DNA of 64,000 nucleotides from the NCBI GenBank assembly GCA_016177845.1, contig JACOUO010000011.1, positions 440,326 through 504,325 of the forward strand, in the 5' to 3' direction. A program made the translations under genes and the position numbers. Positions 1,767-3,537 of this stretch are shown here, in pieces (the first letter of the stretch is position 1; each line of letters opens with the position of its first letter). Under the pieces are notes generated by a model. It had not been told where the DNA came from. It ran no database searches and was given only the letters and a program-made list of their open reading frames with translations. The stretch is from Deltaproteobacteria bacterium (GTDB lineage Bacteria; Desulfobacterota; GWC2-55-46).

Positions 1767-2108
1767 CTATTCTTTTATCCTGCCCTTTCCGCGCCCTTTC
1801 GTCTGGCCGACATATTCTTTTCCGCTTCTTACATCCTGCTTGCTCTCCCTTCTCTTCTCCGTTCCCCCTCCGTTGAGTGTCGCGCCTTCGGCCTTAAGGT
1901 TCTCTATAATGGTTTCAGAGAAACCTGGTATATCTTTAAGCTCTTCCCATTTTTTAAAGTCACCGTGGTTTTTCCTGAAATCTATTATGTGCTGGGCAGC
2001 ATCCTGACCAAGACCGCGTATCTGCAGCAGTTCATTAAGCTGCGCCGCATTTATGTTTATATGTTTTTCAGGCATATAACCCTCCTTTCCATAAAGGGGC
2101 GGAACCAT
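1767..2108 (-). CDS. helix-hairpin-helix (ComEA-like) protein
   Basis: INAAQLNELLQIRGLGQDAAQHIIDFRKNHGDFKKWEELKDIPGFSETIIENLK tandem HhH. Confidence 0.75.
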   Translation of the reverse strand: MVPPLYGKEGYMPEKHININAAQLNELLQIRGLGQDAAQHIIDFRKNHGDFKKWEELKDIPGFSETIIENLKAEGATLNGGGTEKRRESKQDVRSGKEYVGQTKGRGKGRIKE

Positions 2109-2561: not shown

Positions 2562-2598
2562 AAAAAAAGCCGCTGCCTATTTTACGGGCAGCGGCTTT
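2562..2598 (-). terminator. Rho-independent terminator after the rhodanese gene
   Basis: Minus strand AAAGCCGCTGCC-CGTAAAATA-GGCAGCGGCTTTTTTT: perfect stem and U tract, directly after the second stop at 2604. Confidence 0.85.
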
Positions 2599-2603
2599 AG
2601 CTT

Positions 2604-2936
2604 TCACTTGCTTACAACAGGCATTCCTGATTTGACCCACTCATTGAATCCTCCAAGGAGCGCGCTTGCCGCCTTAAATCCTCGATTCAGAAGTATCTGC
2701 GCCGCACGGGCGCTTGAGTGTTCCTCAGTTCAGGTACAGTAAGCGACTACCTCCTTGTTTTTATCAAGCTCCTTGAATCTTATCTCAAGTTCATTCAAAG
2801 GAATCCTGACCGAACCCTGAATCTTTATATTGCTGTTGGCGTAATCTGTCGGGTTTCTCACATCAAGGAGTGTGAAATCTTCTTTGCTGTCCATCTTTTT
2901 TTTAAGCTCTTCTTTTTTTATCCTCGGAGCTTCCAT
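2604..2936 (-). CDS. rhodanese-like sulfurtransferase, candidate selenoprotein (in-frame UGA at 2730-2732 read as Sec)
   Basis: Track ORF 2730..2936 ends ...KEVVAYCT*; same frame continues (U)TEEHSSARAAQILLNRGFKAASALLGGFNEWVKSGMPVVSK* with typical rhodanese C-terminal motifs. Confidence 0.75.
2698..2712 (-). promoter_or_regulatory. candidate bacterial SECIS apical hairpin
   Basis: 16 nt after the UGA: GCGCC-CGUGC-GGCGC, perfect 5-bp stem with GU in the loop. Confidence 0.5.
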
Positions 2937-3537
2937 AACCGCCTCCTTTTAGCTCTCCCTCAATCCTCGCTATAGTTGTCTCTAAAGCCCCTGCCGCTTT
3001 CATCCGCTTCATCGCCCTCTCTGAATCCCCAATATTCAGATCCACTCCTTTTACAGCATCGGTAAGCACTGTTATGCCAATGCCATTTTTTGCCGCGTCC
3101 AACGCGGTCTGAAGCACGCAGTAATCCGTTGCGAGCCCTCCTATATATATATGCCCGATTCCCTTCTCTTTTAAGACCTGAAGAAGCGCCCTGCCTTTAT
3201 CATCCCTGCCGTCAAATCCTGAATAGCTGTCCTCATCAGGGCTCGTGCCTTTGGACATCACTATTGTATCAGGCGGAAGCTTGAGGTCAGGATGAAACTC
3301 CGATCCTTTTGTGCCCTGAACGCAGTGGGGCGGCCATGTGCCGCCGTAAGCCTTGAAATGAACGGTCTTGGCAGGGTGCCAATCCCGTGTGGCTATTACA
3401 GGCAGACCGGCTCTCTTAAACAACTCGATATATCTGTTAAGCACAGGTACGACCTTATCCCCTCCTTTTACGGCAAGCGCCCCGTCCGGGCAGAAATCAT
3501 TCTGCACATCTACTACCAAAAGCACCTTACGCTCCAT
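2902..3537 (-). CDS. pncA: nicotinamidase / isochorismatase-family hydrolase
   Basis: MERKVLLVVDVQNDFCPDGALAVKGGDKVVPVLN...TRDWHP...VQGTKGSEFHP...GGLATDYCVLQTALDA; track start at 3720 is too long. Confidence 0.8.
   Translation of the reverse strand: MERKVLLVVDVQNDFCPDGALAVKGGDKVVPVLNRYIELFKRAGLPVIATRDWHPAKTVHFKAYGGTWPPHCVQGTKGSEFHPDLKLPPDTIVMSKGTSPDEDSYSGFDGRDDKGRALLQVLKEKGIGHIYIGGLATDYCVLQTALDAAKNGIGITVLTDAVKGVDLNIGDSERAMKRMKAAGALETTIARIEGELKGGGYGSSEDKKRRA

Follow-up and report, generated by a model that had tools for sequence, protein, structure and literature searches.

A predicted cytoplasmic rhodanese whose conserved in-frame UGA codon is very probably read as selenocysteine

A minus-strand open reading frame at positions 2730..2936 of the window (the whole 64,000-nucleotide stretch of DNA that was analysed) terminates in ...NKEVVAYCT*, and readthrough of its UGA codon (2730-2732) yields MEAPRI...VVAYCT-U-TEEHSSARAAQILLNRGFKAASALLGGFNEWVKSGMPVVSK before the next stop, TGA 2604-2606. 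Sequence and comparative evidence indicate, with very little room for doubt, that this UGA is decoded as selenocysteine (Sec) by SelB with Sec-tRNA under the guidance of a downstream hairpin, which would make the gene a rhodanese selenoprotein. The 110-residue product (68 codons, Sec69 and 41 further codons) is predicted to be a cytoplasmic rhodanese-domain selenoprotein, whose function we infer below. A first-pass annotation had made the selenoprotein call from the raw sequence; the call is settled here by comparative evidence, and the coordinates given for the reading frame, UGA, hairpin, second stop and terminator were all confirmed on the sequence (Table 1).

The UGA sits within a complete single-domain rhodanese. 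The readthrough protein matches Pfam Rhodanese (PF00581) with 59.3 bits over residues 9-102 (gathering cut-off 22.2), a gain of 20 bits over the 39.2 bits of the truncated form, and the earlier claim that readthrough restores a complete rhodanese C-terminus is thereby upheld. The terminator hairpin begins five bases after the second stop. At the other end of the gene, the 3' end of a nicotinamidase gene (182.9 bits to NF008623, cut-off 174) overlaps the rhodanese start by 35 nt, and a nicotinamidase is the upstream neighbour in 14 of the 19 members of the cytoplasmic rhodanese clade. Two small neighbouring minus-strand ORFs (window positions 1767-2108 and 2147-2386) resemble helix-hairpin-helix (ComEA-like) proteins.

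Table 1. Features of the rhodanese locus (window positions) and of the paralogue in the same genome
Feature	Position	Strand	Basis or remark
Full rhodanese gene, predicted to contain Sec	2604..2936	-	sequence, Pfam, orthologues
In-frame UGA, predicted Sec69, CxU motif (YCTU)	2730..2732	-	TGA in 31/31 homologues
Cys67 codon TGT, two residues before Sec	2736..2738	-	invariant column C67
Predicted bacterial SECIS hairpin GCGCC-CGUGC-GGCGC, 16 nt 3' of UGA	2699..2713	-	constraint and covariation
Shine-Dalgarno AGGAGG, 5 nt before ATG	2942..2947	-	sequence
Intrinsic terminator, 12-bp stem and T-run	2562..2598	-	sequence
Nicotinamidase gene, 211 aa, directly upstream of rhodanese	2902..3537	-	NF008623 match
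Paralogue L068	1453-1869 of L068 (G000:C3:186775-187143)		signal-peptide-like N-terminus, two UGAs (YUTU)

Evidence for selenocysteine at the UGA codon

The hairpin downstream of the UGA was compared with published limits for bacterial SECIS (bSECIS) elements, which are a loop of 3-9 nt with G in the first two positions, a stem of 4-16 bp, a UGA-to-loop distance of 16-37 nt and a minimum free energy <= -7.5 kcal/mol (PMC13188914). It lies within them, with a 5-nt loop (CGUGC) that carries GU, a 5-bp stem, distances of 21 nt from UGA to loop and 16 nt from UGA to stem, and -7.9 kcal/mol for the hairpin alone. When a constraint set close to that of PMC13188914 was applied to the 34 candidate TGAs in the window (those preceded by at least 60 open codons and followed by at least 30), only UGA 2730-2732 passed. 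Neither an Rfam scan of the window nor one of the UGA region at a low threshold matched a SECIS family; bacterial SECIS elements are too variable for such a result to weigh against one here.

Codons +6 to +10 (SARAA or SAGAA), which the hairpin overlaps, are under strong synonymous constraint. Their synonymous entropy is 0-17 bits vs 50-73 bits expected, and it returns towards expectation on either side. Codon +8 ends in T in all 31 homologues read in detail, such that Arg and Gly are always CGT and GGT in the class, codons with a usage of 0.10 and 0.13. The region also folds more strongly than synonymous shuffles (mean z -2.5; since the rows are related, the combined value treats them as more independent than they are). 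Covariation of the stem pairs is visible within the class and clearer in 65 sequences across the phylum, in which 98.5% of stem cells are paired and four of the five stem pairs have changed on both sides. Columns 21-33 exchange C-G and U-A with a split of 30 to 32, pairing is destroyed when the partner is slid by one to three columns, and none of 500 shuffles reached the observed stem covariation. These limits, the synonymous constraint and the covariation all bear out the SECIS-like hairpin that the first-pass annotation had proposed.

Among UGA genes, 65 of 68 carry the complete 5-bp stem, and a complete GC-rich stem is seen in none of the 10 genes whose Sec site holds Cys, Ser or Ala. No other single line of evidence argues as strongly as this tie between stem and UGA that the hairpin is there for the UGA rather than for the protein sequence. 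The small Cys, Ser and Ala clades without the hairpin (L106, L107, L109-L112, L114 and L115) represent a natural Sec-loss series. With Cys, Sec, Ser or Ala at one loop position and the SECIS kept or lost alongside, the family offers a natural experiment on Sec retention.

The selenocysteine machinery, whose presence had been named as a check on the call, is complete in this genome of 3.0 Mb. It encodes tRNA-Sec (selC; 65.2 bits, anticodon UCA), selA (584 bits), selB (342 bits) and selD (370 bits), with the protein genes over their cut-offs. The selD gene (L051, G000:C16:133544-134464) has an in-frame UGA of its own in the motif ASCAGUAAK and corresponds to a Sec-containing selenophosphate synthetase; the organism therefore appears to need UGA decoding even for making selenophosphate. 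Among related genomes, the UGA-containing rhodanese occurs in 31 of the 40 with selA vs 4 of the 19 without it (Fisher P = 5.5e-5). The four genomes that carry the UGA gene and gave no selA match (G019, G028, G030 and G038) are fragmented assemblies, two of them rated 97-98% complete, and these absences are probably assembly gaps.

These findings also bear on the possibility that the UGA is read through by some other route, such as a suppressor tRNA or a code in which UGA is sense, and that the hairpin is a by-product of coding SSARAA. Some pairing is indeed expected from the overlap with conserved SARAA codons, and synonymous shuffles of the region average about -5 kcal/mol. However, codon choice there is far from usage and covaries, the Cys, Ser and Ala counterparts lack the full GC-rich hairpin, and both tRNA-Sec and SelB are present. 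Nor is UGA reassigned, because TGA is the real stop of 7 of the 31 homologues (the others end in 13 TAA and 11 TAG). We consider this explanation very improbable.

Homologues with the same UGA were found in 35 of 59 related genomes. An alignment of homologues had been suggested to see which codon occupies the site. In 31 genes that were examined closely (the paralogue L068 and 30 from the 59-genome search), it is TGA throughout, at identities down to ~42% and with each gene otherwise open. The accompanying remark that rhodaneses of this kind often carry YCxC here needs correction: UGA greatly predominates at the site in this family, Cys is found only in a minority, and Cys, Ser and Ala occur in small groups. 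When the single protein was searched against named contigs, two of the matches were close orthologues and most of the others ordinary rhodaneses, and the nearest named records are metagenome-assembled genomes labelled Deltaproteobacteria.

The first-pass annotation had regarded a nonsense mutation or a sequencing error as the main alternative, and the conserved UGA in relatives excludes this. A pseudogene, whether a rhodanese in decay or one working as a 68-residue stub, might draw on the 39 bits that the truncated ORF alone still scores to Pfam Rhodanese; it is nevertheless at odds with the same TGA in all 31 homologues and in 35 genomes of the class, with the frame and conserved residues kept past the UGA, and with the constraint and covariation of the hairpin, and is less credible still than another route of readthrough. 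A sequencing or assembly error at 2730-2732 is the least credible of all; no observation speaks for it, and the same codon is present in independent assemblies of other species.

A form with two UGA codons

The paralogue L068, which lies elsewhere in the same genome, carries the motif LYUTUPDEYTSARAA, in which both U residues are encoded by TGA; its hairpin stem and loop are identical to those of the window gene. Within the class, the UxU pattern is confined to this genome, and the first impression was of an isolated mutation; this was overturned by 11 further genes of the YUxU form among 395 genomes of the phylum, all of which have the hairpin. The pattern suggests that in the YUxU form Sec may replace the Cys too. 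On the tree, eight changes of the UxU label are needed, at least four of them forced by well-supported branches. The CxU rhodaneses thus seem likely to form an evolutionary series in which Sec has repeatedly taken over the whole redox pair, with CxU as the usual form and UxU served by one hairpin.

If both UGAs are decoded, a sulfurtransferase fold would hold an active site with two Sec residues. The UxU form would also provide a case for studying how a single SECIS can serve two UGAs separated by just one codon. We found no description of a UxU rhodanese selenoprotein in the open-access papers searched, which is weak evidence that the form is new. CxU or UxU domains also occur in frames of ~540-640 codons (G102:C368, G137:C239, G323:C6, G336:C42 and G063:C250), which are probably fusions.

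Active site and proposed mechanism

The structure model of the protein is a single rhodanese domain (pLDDT 88, pTM 0.78) whose best fold matches are solved rhodaneses. In this model, Cys67 directly follows the strand formed by residues 62-66, Sec69 lies in the active-site loop, and a helix begins at residue 73. Profile alignments to two solved structures place different residues over the catalytic Cys: a gap-free alignment to 6mxv places Sec69 there and not Cys67, and the alignment to 6pfz places Cys67 there. Cys67 is preferred as the persulfide-forming nucleophile because the CxS and CxA clades keep Cys67 and lose Sec69. From this pattern we infer, at about even confidence, that Cys67 forms the persulfide and that Sec69 is its redox partner.

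Under this assignment, Cys67 would accept sulfane sulfur and hold it as a persulfide, in the manner of other rhodaneses, and the selenolate of Sec69 would attack or resolve the Cys67 persulfide via a Cys-Sec selenenylsulfide. The sulfur could then be released as sulfide or handed to an acceptor, and the enzyme might be reset by thioredoxin or a low-molecular thiol. The predicted role would be that of a redox-assisted sulfurtransferase or a persulfide reductase.

A distinctly less probable arrangement is a selenoprotein in which Sec69 and not Cys67 attacks, and which may handle selenium or an oxidant rather than sulfane sulfur. The gap-free alignment with the catalytic Cys of 6mxv is consistent with this, as is the indication that Sec can also occupy position 67. 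Against it, some clades that retain Cys67 have Ser or Ala at position 69, and the model has Cys67 directly after the strand. Cys67 as the nucleophile with Sec69 as its partner is therefore the assignment we favour.

Relation to known rhodanese selenoproteins

That rhodanese-related selenoproteins have precedent, as the first-pass annotation had stated, is correct: the CxU form appears in reviews, as COG0607 form 2 (PMC9312934) and rhodanese form 3 (PMC13188914), and in NCBIfam as NF041203. The locus is one of this widespread CxU rhodanese family, a known kind of protein in a new clade. NF041203 (rhodanese_LYCAU, 'rhodanese-related (seleno)protein') is its best NCBIfam match (1.1e-31), at 109.1 bits vs a cut-off of 115. 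Sisters in the cytoplasmic clade score 102.7-119.9, and five of six exported relatives tested from the same class pass the cut-off. In the tree, the cytoplasmic genes form a clade of 19 (support 96) within a class-level branch (support 99), separate from the main LYCAU group. Because of the sub-cut-off score and the separate clade, the window protein is classed as a sister variant and not as a strict NF041203 member.

The window protein shares with NF041203 the rhodanese domain, a CxU motif with Sec second, the same hairpin position and a covarying stem. In contrast to that group, it lacks an N-terminal signal segment, its match to the profile is limited to positions 19-126, it carries TEEHSS where the others have P.E.TS, and its clade is separate, supported and usually located downstream of a nicotinamidase gene. 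Most of the sister clade lies beyond the reach of the curated NF041203 model, and there is a risk that its genes will be recorded in annotations as stubs of 68 residues.

The rhodanese/DsbD fusion-like double selenoprotein TsoB (NF045694) is also a rhodanese with Sec. However, its model is that of a fusion of 572 positions with a UxxxxU motif and a cut-off of 805, to which the window protein scores 29.7 bits. E. coli GlpE and other single-domain thiosulfate sulfurtransferases are not known to contain Sec. They share the fold (TM 0.79 to 1gmx) and domain size with the window protein, but the active-site loop of GlpE-type proteins is shorter and lacks the CxU pair. Rhodanese selenoprotein forms 1, 2 and 4 likewise combine a rhodanese with Sec, in UxxS or UxxG motifs (PMC13188914), whereas the predicted Sec of the window protein instead lies two residues after a retained Cys.
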